Assembly (NCBI RefSeq): GCF_026385505.1
Contig: NZ_JANIDV010000002.1
Span: 62,001 to 126,000 of the forward strand
Length of the DNA: 64,000 nt
Direction of reading: 5' to 3'
Origin: Bombella dulcis
Lineage (GTDB): Bacteria > Pseudomonadota > Alphaproteobacteria > Acetobacterales > Acetobacteraceae
The translations under genes and the position numbers were made by a program. How positions within the stretch are numbered: position 1 is the first letter of the stretch; the number at the start of each line of letters is the position of its first letter. The notes beneath the pieces were generated by a model. That model was not told the origin of the DNA, made no database searches, and saw only the letters and a list, made by a program, of their open reading frames with translations. Of the stretch, positions 34,019 through 62,122 are shown in pieces.

Positions 34019-36493
34019 TCATGACGCCGGGGCGGTTTCTGCCCTTATGACGGTACGGAGACGCCGCAGCCTGAGCGTGTTGCTCAGGACGAAGACGCTG
34101 GAAAGGGCCATGGCCCCTGCTGCGAAGGAGGGGGACAGCAGCGTTCCGGTGAACGGATAGAGCGCACCGGCAGCAATCGGGATGAGGACGATGTTATAGG
34201 CGAAGGCCCAGAAGAGGTTCTGCCGGATGATGGTCATGGTCGCATGGGAGAGGGCGATGGCGTGAGGCACACCCATCAGGTTCTCTCCTGTCAGGACGAG
34301 GTCGGCGGCTTCTATGGCAATGTCGGTCCCGTGGCTGATGGCCAGCCCCGTGTCAGCCTGTACCAGGGCGGGAGCGTCATTGATGCCATCCCCTACGAAG
34401 GCCACGGAACCATGTGTCTCCTGCAGTCTCTGTACGGCCTGACTCTTCTCATGAGGCAGGACATGGGCGATGACCTCCTCGATTCCTGCCAGATTGGCAA
34501 CATGCCGTGCCGTGGCGTCGATGTCGCCGGTAATCATGGCCGTGCGGATGTTCTGCGCCCTCAGGGCTGCCACGGCTTTCACGGCAGAGGGGCGGATGGG
34601 GTCGGCAACGCCCATGAGGGCCACGAGCCGTCCCCTGTGGGCCATGAAGAGGGGCGACGTTCCCTTCTGGCTGAAGGAGGCGGCAAGCCGTTTGGCAGCT
34701 GCATCATACAGGCCCAGTGTTTTCATGTAGGCGTTGTTGCCGATATGGATGTCATGTCCCGCCTCGTCCTGCGCCTCGATGCCCAGCCCTGCAACGATGC
34801 GGGCATGGCTTGTTCTGGCTGCGGGCAGGTTCCGGTCTTCGGCTGCCTTGATGACGGCACGGGAAATGGGATGGTCTGACTGCCGTTCGACGGCGGCAGC
34901 AAGGGCCAGAAGATGCTCTTCAGCCATCTCCGGGTCGGGAACGGTTGTGTCGGCCAGCAGGTAGAATTCTGTCAGGCGGGGCTGCCCGCATGTCAGGGTG
35001 CCGGTCTTGTCGAAAGCGACAAGGCGGGTTTTTTCCAGAGTCTGAAGCACCTCGCCCCTGCGGAAGAGGAGGCCCATTTCTGCCGCCGTGCCCGTGCCGA
35101 CCATGATGGCGGTCGGTGTCGCCAGCCCCATGGCGCAGGGGCAGGCGGCGATCAGTACGGCAATGGCGTTGACGGTGGCATAGCCCAGTGTGGGCACAGG
35201 CCCCAGCCAGAACCAGAGGATGAATGTCAGCACGGCCAGCACGATGATGGCGGGAACGAACCAGAGCGTCACCCTGTTGACGAGGGACTGGATGGGCAGC
35301 CTGCTCCCCTGGGCCTGTGCCACCATGCTGACGATGCGGGCCAGCATGGTGTCGGCCCCGGTGGCCGTGGCCCGGATGGTCAGCGCACCTTCCTGATTGA
35401 TCGTGCCACCCATGACCGTATCGCCTGTCATGCGCCGGACGGGCAGGGGTTCGCCTGTCAGCAGGGATTCATCCAGATGGCTTTCCCCTTCCAGGATCAG
35501 GCCATCCAGAGGAACCCGCTCGCCGGGGCGGACGAGCAGGGTGTCCCCCGGCTTCACGTCAGAAACCGGCACGATCCGGTCTCCGTCTCCGGTGAGGAGA
35601 TGCGCCTTCTGGGGCTGTAGATGGACCAGCTTTTCCAGTGCCGTGGAGGTCCGTCCCTTCGCCCGGGCTTCCATGAGGCGGCCCAGCAGGACCAGCGTGA
35701 GGATGCCCAGGACCGTGTCGAAATAGAGGTTCCGTGTGCCTTCAGGCAGCAGGGAGGGGAAAAAGACGGCGAGGCTGGAATAGAGATAGGCCGCCCCGGT
35801 ACCGAGGGCGACGAGGGAATTCATGTTGGGGGCACCACGCAGCAGGGCCGGAATCCCGTTCCGGAAGAAGCGGCGTCCCGGCCCCAGGAGGGCCACGCTG
35901 GCGCAGCCCCACTGGATGAAGGGCTGTAGCCGGGGAGGAACAAGGCCAAGCCCGTGCCCCATCGTCATGAGCATGATGATGAACCAGAGCAGGGCGGCGA
36001 TTTTCAGGTCACGCCATTGAAGACTCATGCTCTGCCTGAGACGCTCCTGACGGTCCCGCATGGCCTCCGGCCCGTTTTCCTGCTCCAGCAGGGTTGCTGC
36101 AAAGCCGATCCGTTCAATGGCCTCGATGAGGGTCTGATGGGCGGCCGTGCCCGTGACGTGGGCCGTGCCGGTTGCCAGATTGACGCTGGCGGTCCTGACG
36201 CCCATGACGTCCTGAAGGGTCTTTTCCACCCGGGTGGAGCAGGAGGCGCAGCTCATCCCGTCAATGCGGAGCTGGACGGGAGACGGGGGAACGGTGAAGC
36301 CTGTCTGCTCCACGGCGGTGATGAGGGCGGCATGAGATGCCGTTCCTGTGACATGGGCCGTGCCGGTGGTCAGACTGACGCTGGCCGTCTCCACTCCCGG
36401 GACGGCCAGCAGGGCTTTTTCCACCCGGGCGGAGCAGGAGGCGCAGCTCATCCCGTCAATGGGGAAGGTCTGGGATGATGGCGTGGCAGGCAT
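34019..36493 (-). CDS. copA: Copper-exporting P1B-type ATPase
   Basis: 824 residues. There are two N-terminal heavy-metal-associated domains, each with GMSCASC (near residues 14 and 79), followed by eight membrane helices. The actuator motif LTGEP, the transport motif CPC in AACPCAMGLATP, the phosphorylation motif DKTGTLT and GDGINDAPAL are all present. The CPC motif and the paired CxxC domains assign it to Cu+ export. It stands alone, convergent to the aminotransferase gene. No nearby metal regulator was seen. Confidence 0.95.
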   Translation of the reverse strand: MPATPSSQTFPIDGMSCASCSARVEKALLAVPGVETASVSLTTGTAHVTGTASHAALITAVEQTGFTVPPSPVQLRIDGMSCASCSTRVEKTLQDVMGVRTASVNLATGTAHVTGTAAHQTLIEAIERIGFAATLLEQENGPEAMRDRQERLRQSMSLQWRDLKIAALLWFIIMLMTMGHGLGLVPPRLQPFIQWGCASVALLGPGRRFFRNGIPALLRGAPNMNSLVALGTGAAYLYSSLAVFFPSLLPEGTRNLYFDTVLGILTLVLLGRLMEARAKGRTSTALEKLVHLQPQKAHLLTGDGDRIVPVSDVKPGDTLLVRPGERVPLDGLILEGESHLDESLLTGEPLPVRRMTGDTVMGGTINQEGALTIRATATGADTMLARIVSMVAQAQGSRLPIQSLVNRVTLWFVPAIIVLAVLTFILWFWLGPVPTLGYATVNAIAVLIAACPCAMGLATPTAIMVGTGTAAEMGLLFRRGEVLQTLEKTRLVAFDKTGTLTCGQPRLTEFYLLADTTVPDPEMAEEHLLALAAAVERQSDHPISRAVIKAAEDRNLPAARTSHARIVAGLGIEAQDEAGHDIHIGNNAYMKTLGLYDAAAKRLAASFSQKGTSPLFMAHRGRLVALMGVADPIRPSAVKAVAALRAQNIRTAMITGDIDATARHVANLAGIEEVIAHVLPHEKSQAVQRLQETHGSVAFVGDGINDAPALVQADTGLAISHGTDIAIEAADLVLTGENLMGVPHAIALSHATMTIIRQNLFWAFAYNIVLIPIAAGALYPFTGTLLSPSFAAGAMALSSVFVLSNTLRLRRLRTVIRAETAPAS

Positions 36494-36769
36494 GGTCGTC
36501 TTTCCATGGTGGTGTCTGTAACGTGATGCAGGAAGAAAATAGCATCCCGCCGAGGTTACGGAGACAGAAAACTGTGCTCCGGGACTATAAAAAGGGCCGA
36601 CATATGCAGAGAAAGGGACTCTCCCATGAAGGAAATTTGCTGATCGGCCAAATAATCAGTGTTATGTTTACCGTCAGTCAGTATTTTTCTGATGGAAACA
36701 CAAGATTCGGCCTGCCGGACTGACTGTCTTATTGAAATGACGGCGGCGGGCAGGTCCAGGGAGGATATC

Positions 36770-37129
36770 ATGGCGGACGCTGTCAACATTGATAAGCTCA
36801 AGTCCAAGGCTGAAGAGGCCATCAACCCGGATGAGCTGAAAGCAAAGGCCGAGAAGTTCGTCGATACCGACGGGCTGAAAGCCAAGGCTGAGAGTGTCCT
36901 CAACACGGATGAACTGAAGGCCAAGGCTGAGAAGTACGTCAACACGGACGAGCTGAAGGAGAAGGCTGGTCAGTGCGCCAAGCACGCTCAGTCCGCCGTC
37001 GATTCCATCGGCAAGGGGCTGAACTCCAAGAGCCGCTGCCAGTGTGTCGGCCAGACCCTGCTGTGGGGCGGCGTCATCGTGGCTGCCCTTGCTGGTCTCT
37101 GCGCTATCGGCCGCTGGCTGAAGAAGTAA
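36770..37129 (+). CDS. Small membrane-anchored protein with five tandem 13-residue repeats
   Basis: 119 residues. After MADAV come five consecutive 13-residue units: NIDKLKSKAEEAI, NPDELKAKAEKFV, DTDGLKAKAESVL, NTDELKAKAEKYV and NTDELKEKAGQCA. Each is charged and amphipathic, with Asp-x-Leu-Lys near its start. A Cys-containing linker (SRCQCVG) leads to one C-terminal membrane helix (LLWGGVIVAALAGLCAIG) and a basic tail WLKK, so the repeats are probably cytoplasmic and held at the membrane. Function is unknown; LEA-like or scaffold roles are guesses. AGGGAGGA before ATG 36770 fixes the start, and a terminator follows. Confidence 0.8.
   Translation: MADAVNIDKLKSKAEEAINPDELKAKAEKFVDTDGLKAKAESVLNTDELKAKAEKYVNTDELKEKAGQCAKHAQSAVDSIGKGLNSKSRCQCVGQTLLWGGVIVAALAGLCAIGRWLKK
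36785..36979 (+). repeat. Five tandem 39-bp coding repeats
   Basis: Units start at 36785, 36824, 36863, 36902 and 36941 in the same reading frame and encode the 13-residue repeats. Units 2 to 4 share AAGGC-rich cores such as CTGAAAGCAAAGGCCGAGAA and its variants. The 39-base period is divisible by three, so copy-number changes would stay in frame. Confidence 0.85.
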
Positions 37130-37172
37130 GCCTTCATCGGCACGGTCCCCGTAGGGGGATAGGTAATCGGGT

Positions 37173-37208
37173 GAGAACCCCCGGCCGCAGGGTCGGGGGT
37201 TCTCTTTT
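37173..37208 (+). terminator. Rho-independent terminator after the repeat protein
   Basis: The arms GAGAACCCCCG (37173-37183) and CGGGGGTTCTC (37194-37204) are perfect and followed by TTTT on the plus strand, 44 bases past the stop. Confidence 0.88.
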
Positions 37209-37228
37209 GGATGCAAAAGCAGGGAGAT

Positions 37229-39448
37229 TTAGTCTTCCATCATCTTATCGTAATGTTTTTTGTGATCCATTTTTATGAAAATTTGTTCGAATATGTTTAA
37301 ATATGACTCAACATTGTTGTTACTAATGTCAGTGATAATACTATCTTGAATATTGTGTGAGCCATCATGTGCCCAGTTTATTAATGATAGGCATATTAAT
37401 CTGTCATCATCTTGGAATTTGTTAGGAAGGTCTTTAAGATCAATGTCTCCTACAAAATAGAAATAATTTTCTAGTATTCTTCTGCATATGTTTTGTATGC
37501 CGATAGAGTGTTCGTTAGGATGCTTTTTTGCACTGCGAATTTCATCCCAGAGTAAATCATAGGATTTTTTGACAGGGTTTTTTTTACAGCGTCTTATAGA
37601 TGAAATATTTTCTTTTTTTGTTATGAGCCAGAAAGATGTGCCCTTGGTATGTTTCTGGTATGTAACTTCGTTAAAGAAATAAGCATTATGAGATAAAAGG
37701 AAAATCTGCCTTATTTTTTGTGGATTGTTTCCGGTTTTATCGTGGGTTTTTTCAATAATTTCCTTTATAAGTGCGCTGATAATGAATAATGTATTAAAAT
37801 CCATGCTTGAGACAGGATCATCTATTACGATGACTTTTTCTTGGTTTATATCATTTTCACTGATTCCACCATGTATTAAGAAATAAAAGTATAAAAATGA
37901 TATAAATGATTTTTCACCTTCACTCAGGGTGTTGATGGCGTCATTTCCATTAGGGCGAACAATGGTATACTGGTCTGTTTTGTTAATATTTTTTATGTAA
38001 AAATTTTTAAATCCATATGTTTTTAGGAGGTTATTTATTCTTTCGATGGTTGGTTGTACACTGACTAGAGATTTTTCTAAATCATTTATTTTTCTATTTT
38101 TAGATTCTATTATCCTGTTTATTTCTGAATGTTTATTATTTTTTTCTTTTATAAGTTCTTGATTTTTTCTTCTCTCGGAGAGATGATCTTTTATGTCTTT
38201 CATATTTTTATTGATGAATAATGACCATATTTTTTTGTCTAATTCACTTTCAAGAGAGTCTTTTTTTGTTACTAGTGCATTATGTTTTATTATTAGAGCG
38301 TTGATATCAGAGACATCTCTTTCAATTAAACGTAAAATTTCAGCTGTGTGTTTTATCTCGTTTTCATTTATTACAATGCTCGGGTTGTTCATCTTTTTTT
38401 CGAAGACATGAGAATTTTCATTGAATTTTTCTGATATTTTTGGCTTTATGTTCTTTATTCTTTCGTATTTATCTTGAATTCCCTCTACGTCCAATGAAGA
38501 TTGGATTTTATTTATTATGCTGTCTATGAAGGAAATTACATATCTTTGAGCCTTCATGTATTTTGTATTTATATCTTTAATTTCCTCAAGTGATTTCTCG
38601 TATGTTGTATCAAAAAATTTTTCTAACTGAGATTTTATATTATCATTGATGGTTTGTTGACAAAAAGGGCACTTGCTTGCCCCTTCGTCGAGAAAGTTAA
38701 GTCCTTGGTGTACCCAATCGGAATTGCCCATTGCGTTGATAAATTGGGATACGATTGTATCATTTCGTCCTACAATACTTCTCCCTAAAAGGGGGGAGTT
38801 TTCACATGTGAACAAAATTTCTTTATTGTAAACTGTTGTGTCAAATCTTATTTCAGTATAAGTTTTCGTTTCTTTTGAAAAAACTATATTATAATTTTTT
38901 CTAAATTCTTCTTCATCAATATTTTCTATATTTTTATTATTGTATTCTTCTATGACTTTTTTGGCAAACTTCTCTTTACTTCCATTGTATCCTTTGAATG
39001 ATTTTTCGTATTTATTGAAATTTTTCTTTTCATCCCACATCTTTTCATGGAATTTTTTATTATTATTCTCTAATTCACGGGATATTTCCTTTATATAGTC
39101 TTTTATGCATGTAGAATCACGTTCTAGGCAATCTATTTTTTCTTTTATGGAATCTATATTATTTTTAGCATCTATATTGTTTTCTCCGATAGTAAATATT
39201 CCTGCGATCCTTTCAGAAATATTTTTGTTTATGAAGTCTGCATTATACACAAGAGTTTGTAATTTTTTATTATTTGTCCATTTTATTTTGCATGCACCAT
39301 ACGGGTCTATGTTTTCTATGATGCGTGATATGGTTGTTTTTCCACATCCATTATATCCAAAAAAGTAATTCACTGTTTCCAAATTATCTATATTTATTCT
39401 TTCTTTAGGATATGTTGCTACGTCTGCGATTGTTATGTTTCTAATCAT
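37229..39448 (-). CDS. AAA_13-family ATPase with zinc-hook CxxC, PrrC/RloC-like anticodon nuclease candidate
   Basis: 739 residues, strikingly AT-rich with Asn, Lys and Ile codons, unlike every neighbour, so probably acquired. It is an ABC/SMC-type ATPase split by a long coiled coil: Walker A GYNGCGKTT (31-39), signature-like LSEGEK (508-513), Walker B VIVIDDPVSSMD (539-550) and H-loop LLSHNAYFF (584-592). Mid-protein CPFC (260-263) resembles the Rad50/RloC zinc hook. The C-terminal R656-x3-E660 and H694/H698 (in RRILENYF and NWAHDGSH) resemble the Arg-Glu-His triad of PrrC/RloC tRNA nucleases; this match is by eye. No restriction-modification genes adjoin. It follows trpA on the same strand. 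A generic AAA_13 protein without nuclease activity is the alternative. Confidence 0.75.
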   Translation of the reverse strand: MIRNITIADVATYPKERINIDNLETVNYFFGYNGCGKTTISRIIENIDPYGACKIKWTNNKKLQTLVYNADFINKNISERIAGIFTIGENNIDAKNNIDSIKEKIDCLERDSTCIKDYIKEISRELENNNKKFHEKMWDEKKNFNKYEKSFKGYNGSKEKFAKKVIEEYNNKNIENIDEEEFRKNYNIVFSKETKTYTEIRFDTTVYNKEILFTCENSPLLGRSIVGRNDTIVSQFINAMGNSDWVHQGLNFLDEGASKCPFCQQTINDNIKSQLEKFFDTTYEKSLEEIKDINTKYMKAQRYVISFIDSIINKIQSSLDVEGIQDKYERIKNIKPKISEKFNENSHVFEKKMNNPSIVINENEIKHTAEILRLIERDVSDINALIIKHNALVTKKDSLESELDKKIWSLFINKNMKDIKDHLSERRKNQELIKEKNNKHSEINRIIESKNRKINDLEKSLVSVQPTIERINNLLKTYGFKNFYIKNINKTDQYTIVRPNGNDAINTLSEGEKSFISFLYFYFLIHGGISENDINQEKVIVIDDPVSSMDFNTLFIISALIKEIIEKTHDKTGNNPQKIRQIFLLSHNAYFFNEVTYQKHTKGTSFWLITKKENISSIRRCKKNPVKKSYDLLWDEIRSAKKHPNEHSIGIQNICRRILENYFYFVGDIDLKDLPNKFQDDDRLICLSLINWAHDGSHNIQDSIITDISNNNVESYLNIFEQIFIKMDHKKHYDKMMED

Positions 39449-39502
39449 GACAAGGTTCCTTGTGCATTTAGCAGCTCGATATGGAAAAAATAGACTAGAA
39501 GA

Positions 39503-40318
39503 TTATTCTCGCACCGCCTTGGCAAGGGAGCGGATTTTCTCCAGTGCCGTGGGGATGCTTCTGGCCGTGGCGTGGCCGTGTTCATCATAGGTGGCGGCCA
39601 TCTCCTTGATGATGGCGGATGCCACGACGGCCCCGTCACTGATGCGGGAGGCCGTGCGGGCCTGCTCCGGCGTGCTGATGCCAAAACCGGCCACGACGGG
39701 AAGGTCCGTGGCGGTCCGCAGGCGGGTCATGGCGGCTTTCAGCTGCTCTTCCGTGGCACTGCGTGTGCCCGTGATGCCCGTGATGCTCACATGATAGACG
39801 AATCCGCTGGCCTTCCTGAGGATGGTCTTCAGCCGGTCATCCGGTGTGGTGGGGGCGGTCAGGGTGATCATGTCCAGCCCTTCCGCTCTGGCGTGGGGGG
39901 CCAGCTCCTCGGATTCCTCAGGCGGCAGGTCCACCACGATCAGTCCATCCACACCGGCGGAGCGGGCATCCTTGCAGAATCGCTCCGCACCGTAGCTGTC
40001 GATCGGATTGTAATAGCCCATCAGGATGATTGGCGTATGGTCATTTTCCTTGCGGAAGTCCTGGATGAGTTCCAGCGTTCCCTTCAGGGTGGCTCCGGCT
40101 TTCAGGCCACGCCGGGCGGCAAGCTGGATGGTCGGGCCATCGGCGGAGGGGTCGGAGAAGGGCACGCCGACCTCGATGAGATCGGCCCCGGCTTCGGGCA
40201 TCTGGCGCAGCAGGGCCAGAGAGGTCTCCCGGTCCGGGTCGAAGGCTTCCAGATAGGGGAGCAGGGCACCACGGCCCTCTTCTTTCAGGCGGTCAAAATA
40301 GGCTTTGATGCGGCTCAT
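39503..40318 (-). CDS. trpA: Tryptophan synthase alpha subunit
   Basis: 271 residues, full length. The catalytic Glu lies in LIEVGVPFSDPSADGP (near residue 49) and the catalytic Asp region before PIILMGYYNPI; the phosphate-binding GFGIS lies near 212. It cleaves indole-3-glycerol phosphate and channels indole to TrpB. It is 11 bases after trpB on the same strand. No clear terminator separates it from the AT-rich ATPase gene downstream, so read-through is possible. Confidence 0.96.
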   Translation of the reverse strand: MSRIKAYFDRLKEEGRGALLPYLEAFDPDRETSLALLRQMPEAGADLIEVGVPFSDPSADGPTIQLAARRGLKAGATLKGTLELIQDFRKENDHTPIILMGYYNPIDSYGAERFCKDARSAGVDGLIVVDLPPEESEELAPHARAEGLDMITLTAPTTPDDRLKTILRKASGFVYHVSITGITGTRSATEEQLKAAMTRLRTATDLPVVAGFGISTPEQARTASRISDGAVVASAIIKEMAATYDEHGHATARSIPTALEKIRSLAKAVRE

Positions 40319-40329
40319 GATGGCTCTCC

Positions 40330-41562
40330 TTACAGTTTCACGCCCAGATGGGCCGCAACGGTGGGAACATCCTTGTCCCCCCGGCCGGACAGATTGACGA
40401 TGATGGTCTGGTCTTTTGTCATGGTCGGGGCCAGCACGATGGCATGGGCCACGGCATGGGCACTTTCCAGTGCCGGGATGATGCCTTCCAGTCTCGTGAG
40501 GGTCTGGAAGGCTTCAAGGGCCTGATCGTCCGTGGCACTGACGTAGTTCACCCGGCCAATGTCCTTGAGCCATGAATGTTCCGGCCCGATGCCGGGATAG
40601 TCCAGCCCGGCACTGATGGAATGGGCTTCCGTGATCTGCCCGTGTTCATCCTGAAGCAGATAGGTGCGGTTGCCATGCAGGACACCGGGCCTGCCACGGG
40701 CGATGGAGGCCGCCGTCTTGCCACTGTCCAGGCCCAGACCGGCGGCTTCCACGCCGTAAAGCGGGACATCGGCATCATCAAGGAAGGGGTGGAAAATCCC
40801 CATGGCGTTGGACCCGCCCCCGATGGCTGCCACAACGGCATCCGGCAGGCGGCCTGTCTGTTCCTGTATCTGCTCACGGGCTTCCGTCCCGATGATGGAC
40901 TGGAAGTCCCTCACCATGGCCGGGTAAGGATGTGGCCCCGCCACCGTGCCGACGAGGAAGTAGGTGTTCTCCACATTGGCCACCCAGTCCCGCATGGCTT
41001 CATTCATGGCATCTTTCAGCGTGCCGGCCCCCGCCGTGACAGGATGGACCTTGGCTCCCAGAAGGTGCATGCGGAAGACGTTGGGCTTCTGCCGCTCCAC
41101 ATCGGTGGCCCCCATGTAGATTTCACAGTCCAGCCCGAAGAGAGCGCAGACGGTGGCGGTGGCCACGCCATGCTGTCCGGCTCCGGTTTCGGCCACGATG
41201 CGGGTCTTGCCCATGCGGCGGGCCAGAAGAATCTGGCCCATCACGTTATTGAGCTTATGGGACCCCGTATGGTTCAGCTCTTCCCGCTTGAGGTAAATCT
41301 GTGCTCCGCCGAGCGTTTCGCTCAGCCGTCTGGCGTGCCAGAGCGGGCTGGGGCGGCCCACATAGTGGCGGAGGTAATAATCCAGCTCTTCCTGAAACTG
41401 CGGGTCTGTCCTGGTCTCGTTATAGGCCTGTTCCAGCTCCAGCATCAGGGGCATGAGGGTCTCGGCTACGAAGCGGCCCCCGTGAACCCCGAAATGCCCT
41501 CGTTCATCCGGCCCGGTGCGGAGGGAATTGAGTTGGCTGGTGATGGATGTATCTGCTGGCAT
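40330..41562 (-). CDS. trpB: Tryptophan synthase beta subunit
   Basis: 410 residues. The PLP-binding Lys is in [14 protein letters not shown] (near residue 103), with [10 protein letters not shown] and the phosphate-binding GGGSNAMG (near 248). It condenses indole with serine to tryptophan. It lies between sucA (30 bases upstream) and trpA; trpF, often next to trpB in Alphaproteobacteria, is not here. Confidence 0.97.
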
Positions 41563-61982: not shown

Positions 61983-62122
61983 TGCCTTCCGGCTGGGGCG
62001 GACAGATGATATGACGGGGGCAGGTCCGGCGGGTCGGGCCTCCCCTGTAGGCGGGTGAGCCTGTCCGCAGCGGGTCTGTTGTGAGGTCGGAGCGACCACA
62101 TCATCCATGAGGGAGAACGGCC

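Follow-up and report, generated by a model that had tools for sequence, protein, structure and literature searches.

A horizontally acquired, stand-alone rloC-like gene in Bombella dulcis most likely encodes a latent anticodon nuclease

Beside trpA in the genome of Bombella dulcis lies a gene for an ABC-type ATPase whose base composition is unlike that of its neighbours, and the question is what this solitary gene encodes. The first-pass annotation of the window (the whole 64,000-nucleotide stretch analysed, positions 62,001 to 126,000 of contig NZ_JANIDV010000002.1) had proposed a stand-alone anticodon nuclease of the RloC type. The evidence presented here makes it highly probable that the gene is a stand-alone rloC acquired horizontally, with a latent anticodon nuclease as its most likely product. 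It is a new example of the known RloC family, a group of suicidal defence proteins that cut tRNA, and not a new kind of system.

The gene and its family

The gene and its motifs lie in the window as follows.

37229..39448, minus strand: rloC-like gene for a 739-aa ABC ATPase with a predicted C-terminal nuclease domain (open reading frame; Pfam AAA_13; PADLOC PDC-S06)
39332..39358, minus strand: Walker A GYNGCGKTT, residues 31-39 (sequence; G36 and K37 invariant in 89 homologues)
38660..38671, minus strand: residues 260-263, CPFC motif of the zinc hook at the tip of the coiled-coil insert (conservation, AlphaFold, alignment)
37910..37927, minus strand: ABC signature LSEGEK, residues 508-513 (S509, E510, G511 and E512 invariant in 89 homologues)
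37799..37822, minus strand: Walker B and D-loop DDPVSSMD, residues 543-550 (D543, P545, S547 and S548 invariant)
37688..37690, minus strand: H-loop histidine H587 (invariant in 89 homologues)
37232..37573, minus strand: C-terminal helical domain, residues 626-739, predicted anticodon nuclease (PrrC alignment; all-helical model)
37469..37483, minus strand: R656-x3-E660, predicted catalytic Arg and Glu (conservation; aligned with the Arg and Glu of PrrC)
37355..37360, minus strand: S697-H698, predicted catalytic His and the Ser before it (conservation; aligned with the SH of PrrC)
37238..37255, minus strand: HYDKMM motif near the C-terminus, residues 732-737 (both H732 and M736 invariant across the 89 homologues)

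The open reading frame call and translation give an intact 739-aa frame with an ATG start, and a ribosome-binding-like AAGGAA stands 7 bases before the ATG. The Walker A, CPFC, LSEGEK and DDPVSSMD motifs and the H-loop named by the first-pass annotation were all found, CPFC at the residues where it had been placed. Its statement that the base composition departs from the surroundings was also borne out: the gene has 29.1% GC and a GC3 of 0.28, against a GC of 0.62-0.64 and a GC3 of 0.75-0.78 for the neighbouring trpA, trpB and oxoglutarate dehydrogenase genes.

The 739-aa protein matches Pfam AAA_13 over its full length (5.5e-150) and PADLOC PDC-S06 (model PDLC04890) end to end (1.9e-222), and residues 462-730 match the PADLOC PrrC profile more weakly (4.1e-13). 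The same PDC-S06 models are matched by five homologues from plasmids and one prophage, and the prophage homologue carries the annotation "translation-disabling ACNase RloC". PDC-S06 is a single-gene phage defence candidate to which the likeness is full-length, but the name was given automatically to a candidate, its models span several RloC-like classes, and it does not denote a tested function; in a Bacillus cereus survey it is among the PADLOC labels for proteins that DefenseFinder names otherwise (PMC11811056). Searching the PDB by sequence gave no meaningful match, a profile search gave coiled coils and generic ABC heads, and a single-sequence scan of viral contigs found no close relatives.

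RloC has been defined by ABC motifs, a CXXC hook and the pattern Arg-X3-Glu-X36-52-His, often with a Ser before the His, in proteins of 658-897 aa (PMC2610378). The length of 739 aa lies within this range, and R656-x3-E660-x37-H698 lies within the pattern. Membership of the RloC family is supported on every feature testable by sequence: the RloC-type assignment made by the first-pass annotation agrees with the ABC motifs, the CXXC hook, the triad spacing, the full-length RloC-like homology and the triad columns that match those of PrrC.

The protein is RloC-like and not PrrC-like because PrrC is about half its size and has no hook. The two have the ABC head in common, and their C-terminal domains and triads correspond by profile comparison. 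However, PrrC proteins have 341-416 aa (about 340-416), lack the coiled-coil hook insert and are tied to a type I restriction-modification (R-M) locus; PrrC is the anticodon nuclease of the EcoprrI locus, whereas the 739-aa protein has a hook and no type I R-M system was found in its genome. PrrC membership was rejected on the length of 739 aa, the presence of the CPFC hook and a locus that is not type I R-M.

Conservation of the catalytic residues and the hook

Homologues came from plasmids, a prophage and congeners as well as from 80 genome contigs spread over many phyla, and 89 were compared. R656 is kept in 89/89, 87 homologues have Glu at position 660 and the other 2 have Asp, and H698 and the preceding S697 are each present in 88/89. 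The hook cysteines are equally stable (C260 in 88/89, C263 in 89/89). Only 302 of 100,000 random residue triples of the C-terminal domain are as conserved as R656/E660/H698. The first-pass annotation had named R656-x3-E660 together with H694/H698, and had listed a lack of conservation of these residues in close homologues as a possible refutation. R656, E660 and H698 are conserved, and this part of the claim stands; H694 was rejected as the catalytic His because residue 694 is Asn in 64 homologues and His in 22.

At the C-terminus, H732 and M736 of an HYxxMM motif are as conserved as the catalytic triad, and the endings HYNEM, HYKAM and DQYSAL in other RloC-like classes resemble this motif. 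Among the homologues, that of Streptococcus phage Javan105 (L007 4917-7175), annotated as an RloC anticodon nuclease, has Asp in place of the catalytic Glu and lacks the His at the conserved SH position. Because of these two changes, the Javan105 homologue may be inactive or altered.

The C-terminal domain was compared with PrrC proteins that the PADLOC PrrC model had picked out among genomes of the order to which a Pantoea relative belongs. The profile comparison with anticodon nuclease relatives proposed in the first-pass annotation puts the triad columns in register: hhalign against the PrrC alignment, given no hint of the triad, pairs R656/E660/H698 with R303/E307/H339 of one PrrC (L161), with E = 3.5e-7. 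The Arg-to-His distance in that PrrC is 36, equal to that between R320 and H356, the catalytic Arg and His of E. coli PrrC (PMC2610378). Several RloC-like classes were recovered from Pseudomonadales genomes, and longer classes with CEFC or CAFC hooks were taken from the order of a Pseudomonas genome. Against these longer classes hhalign aligned the full length (E = 2.9e-55) with both hook and triad in register, at an identity to other RloC-like classes of 19%.

Insertion history and restriction-modification context

The surroundings of the gene are defined by the following features.

37210..39508, no strand: inserted segment with the rloC-like gene as the only gene inside, limits approximate (empty site in congener G003)
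37173..37204, plus strand: intrinsic terminator by the left edge of the insert (terminator scan; also present at empty sites)
39503..40318, minus strand: trpA, the right neighbour, 54 bp upstream of the rloC-like start (Pfam Trp_syntA, 2e-90)

In the close congener G003 the site is empty: its sequence aligns with window positions 35900-37209 (98%) and 39509-40998 (95%), and 13 bp separate the two matching parts. Since this empty site matches both flanks, the insert measures about 2.3 kb and contains nothing but the rloC-like gene, with trpA on one side and the terminator on the other. In a further congener, G009, this site is occupied by a homologue of 48-49% identity and 27% GC, whereas the site is empty in its nearer relatives G006 and G010; altogether, the gene is missing in 9 of 11 congeneric species. 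The G009 homologue is intact, with an identity of 0.59-0.62 in the head and nuclease domains against 0.37 in the coiled coil. In the tree it forms a fully supported clade with the 739-aa protein, apart from the homologues of Acetobacter, Gluconacetobacter and Acidisoma. The empty and occupied sites and the tree indicate horizontal acquisition. Either one acquisition followed by repeated loss or exchange between congeners through the shared flanks would fit. A search for mobile-element ends found neither repeats around the insert nor an adjacent integrase.

The 54 bp that separate the gene from trpA, which is on the same strand, contain no consensus promoter, and expression could therefore come from trpBA by read-through. 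Beyond the terminator, window positions 36659-37129 on the plus strand encode a 156-aa product that contains repeats of 13 residues (39 nt per unit) and has a hydrophobic stretch at its C-terminus. This product has no Pfam match above the cut-off, and the repeat region of its gene aligns poorly between congeners.

The first-pass annotation had also stated that no modification system adjoins the gene and that it would be a stand-alone unit. Both statements agree with what was found, a single-gene insert with no modification gene among the neighbouring open reading frames tested, which are metabolic or housekeeping. A search of the whole assembly with PF02384 gave a single match, to a 916-aa MmeI-type protein of contig C24, and hence no type I HsdM. 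The PF01555 methyltransferase profile matches two open frames (406 and 275 aa), both on other contigs. The MmeI-type gene, a single-protein R-M gene, is located at C24 51274-51852 (L126 367-3117).

Of 79 homologue loci, 8 have type I R-M genes next to the rloC homologue and 4 have a type-III-Mod-like open reading frame there (the type III reading was made by eye), and no partner gene is universal to the clade. In seven loci (L061, L069, L073, L086, L032, L074 and L076) an hsdS-like open reading frame precedes the rloC homologue at a distance of -3 to +10 bp, and this spacing suggests that rloC lies there inside a type I R-M operon. A separate open reading frame of about 420-490 aa recurs 0-60 bp from the rloC homologue, upstream in L045, L072, L079 and L087 and downstream in L101; the L087 copy has a zinc-ribbon-like start (CPNC) and a coiled coil. 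In the published survey, RloC was linked to type I or III R-M in 8/73 cases, and 10/73 were in strains that have neither type (PMC2610378). By these counts a solitary RloC is ordinary, and the stand-alone state, being normal for RloC, therefore adds no novelty.

Proposed function and alternative readings

Two RloC proteins provide the basis for a functional reading. RloC of Geobacillus kaustophilus excises the wobble nucleotide; any mutation of its triad abolishes activity and mutation of its hook raises activity (Davidov and Kaufmann 2008, PMC2610378). RloC of Acinetobacter baylyi is activated in its own host by an inducer of DNA breaks, cuts tRNA-Glu and tRNA-Gln, and is silenced and activated independently of R-M proteins (PMC3874168). 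By their published description, both resemble the 739-aa protein in the ABC motifs, the coiled-coil CXXC hook, the triad with its Ser, the size and the usual lack of R-M. The G. kaustophilus protein differs in an Arg-to-His distance of 45 (692 to 737) against 42, and the hook here is CPFCQQ; from the difference in distance, it probably belongs to another class.

From the published work on these two proteins, we infer that the 739-aa protein cleaves tRNA, is controlled by its zinc hook and is activated by DNA breaks, and its function is most likely that of a latent anticodon nuclease released by DNA damage or phage. In the proposed mechanism, two copies of the protein would join by their Rad50-like ATPase heads and by the zinc hook at the coiled-coil tip, a state that would keep the C-terminal RNase domain silent. 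On sensing DNA ends or damage, as in a phage infection, the ATPase head would release the RNase, which would then cut the tRNA anticodon loop in a metal-independent reaction that uses R656, E660 and H698. Translation, and with it phage growth, would stop.

The identity of the RNA target is where the main competing reading arises. The C-terminal domain was modelled in isolation as all helical, and in a Foldseek search with this model HEPN toxins rank 1, 4, 6, 7, 24 and 49, with E values of 1.5-8 and a probability of 0.15 at best, none of them significant. Two of the PDB entries concerned, 7bxo and 5yep, we take to be HEPN proteins. HEPN toxins (HEPN/MNT, SO_3166) resemble the domain in being all helical and stand first in its Foldseek list, but the structural match is not significant, with E at or above 1.5. 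The RNase domains of RloC and PrrC have been assigned to the HEPN superfamily (PMC3710099), and the C-terminal domain may have this fold. HEPN domains overall cut many kinds of RNA (PMC3710099), and an RNase of the same family might act on another part of tRNA or on another RNA. The superfamily is old and divergent, as the low identity to other RloC-like classes illustrates; the clade of about 740-aa CPFCQQ proteins shows a C-terminal motif of its own in which H732 and M736 are invariant, and no assayed protein identifiable as a member was found in the literature searched. However, the triad aligns with PrrC and with the other RloC-like classes, and PrrC and both assayed RloC proteins cut anticodon loops, so that a target outside the anticodon loop appears improbable. 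The clade ranges from Proteobacteria to Firmicutes, Bacteroidota and one archaeon. It is conceivable, though we think it unlikely, that it forms a distinct RloC class that cuts another tRNA or site than the assayed RloCs and has an extra essential C-terminal element in H732 and M736.

AlphaFold predicted the head and coiled coils confidently (mean pLDDT 86), with long helices flanking the CPFC hook on both sides, and left the loop containing H698 (residues 693-707) poorly defined, at low confidence. With this model Foldseek returned Rad50 heads first, followed by Lamassu, retron and PtuA ATPases. Rad50/SbcC is the best fold match and shares the split ABC head, the coiled-coil insert and the zinc hook, and these top matches to Rad50 and other SMC-type heads would suit a DNA repair or tethering ATPase without a nuclease of its own. 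We regard this as very improbable, since the protein is a full-length match to AAA_13 and PDC-S06, Rad50 lacks such a C-terminal domain (PMC2610378), few positions of the C-terminal domain are as conserved as the triad, and no sbcD-like (Mre11/SbcD) partner adjoins the gene. A decaying or silent foreign gene, to which the AT-richness, the lack of a consensus promoter in the 54 bp upstream and the absence from 9 of 11 species might point, is scarcely credible given the intact frame and motifs, the AAGGAA before the ATG, and an intact G009 orthologue at 48% identity with its head and nuclease domains better conserved than the coiled coil.

A phage-defence role of RloC is widely assumed. RloC is often counted in defence surveys, yet only two assayed proteins were found in the literature searched. 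Across 250 Pseudomonas strains RloC correlated with phage susceptibility, not resistance (PMC12447246), and a Streptococcus thermophilus study did not test it (PMC12322248). As a latent anticodon nuclease candidate, the B. dulcis gene offers a clean test case: it was inserted alone, a sister with the empty site exists in nature, and the genome search turned up no type I R-M gene that could regulate it in trans. A self-contained zinc-hook switch would therefore be testable here without R-M as a confounder.
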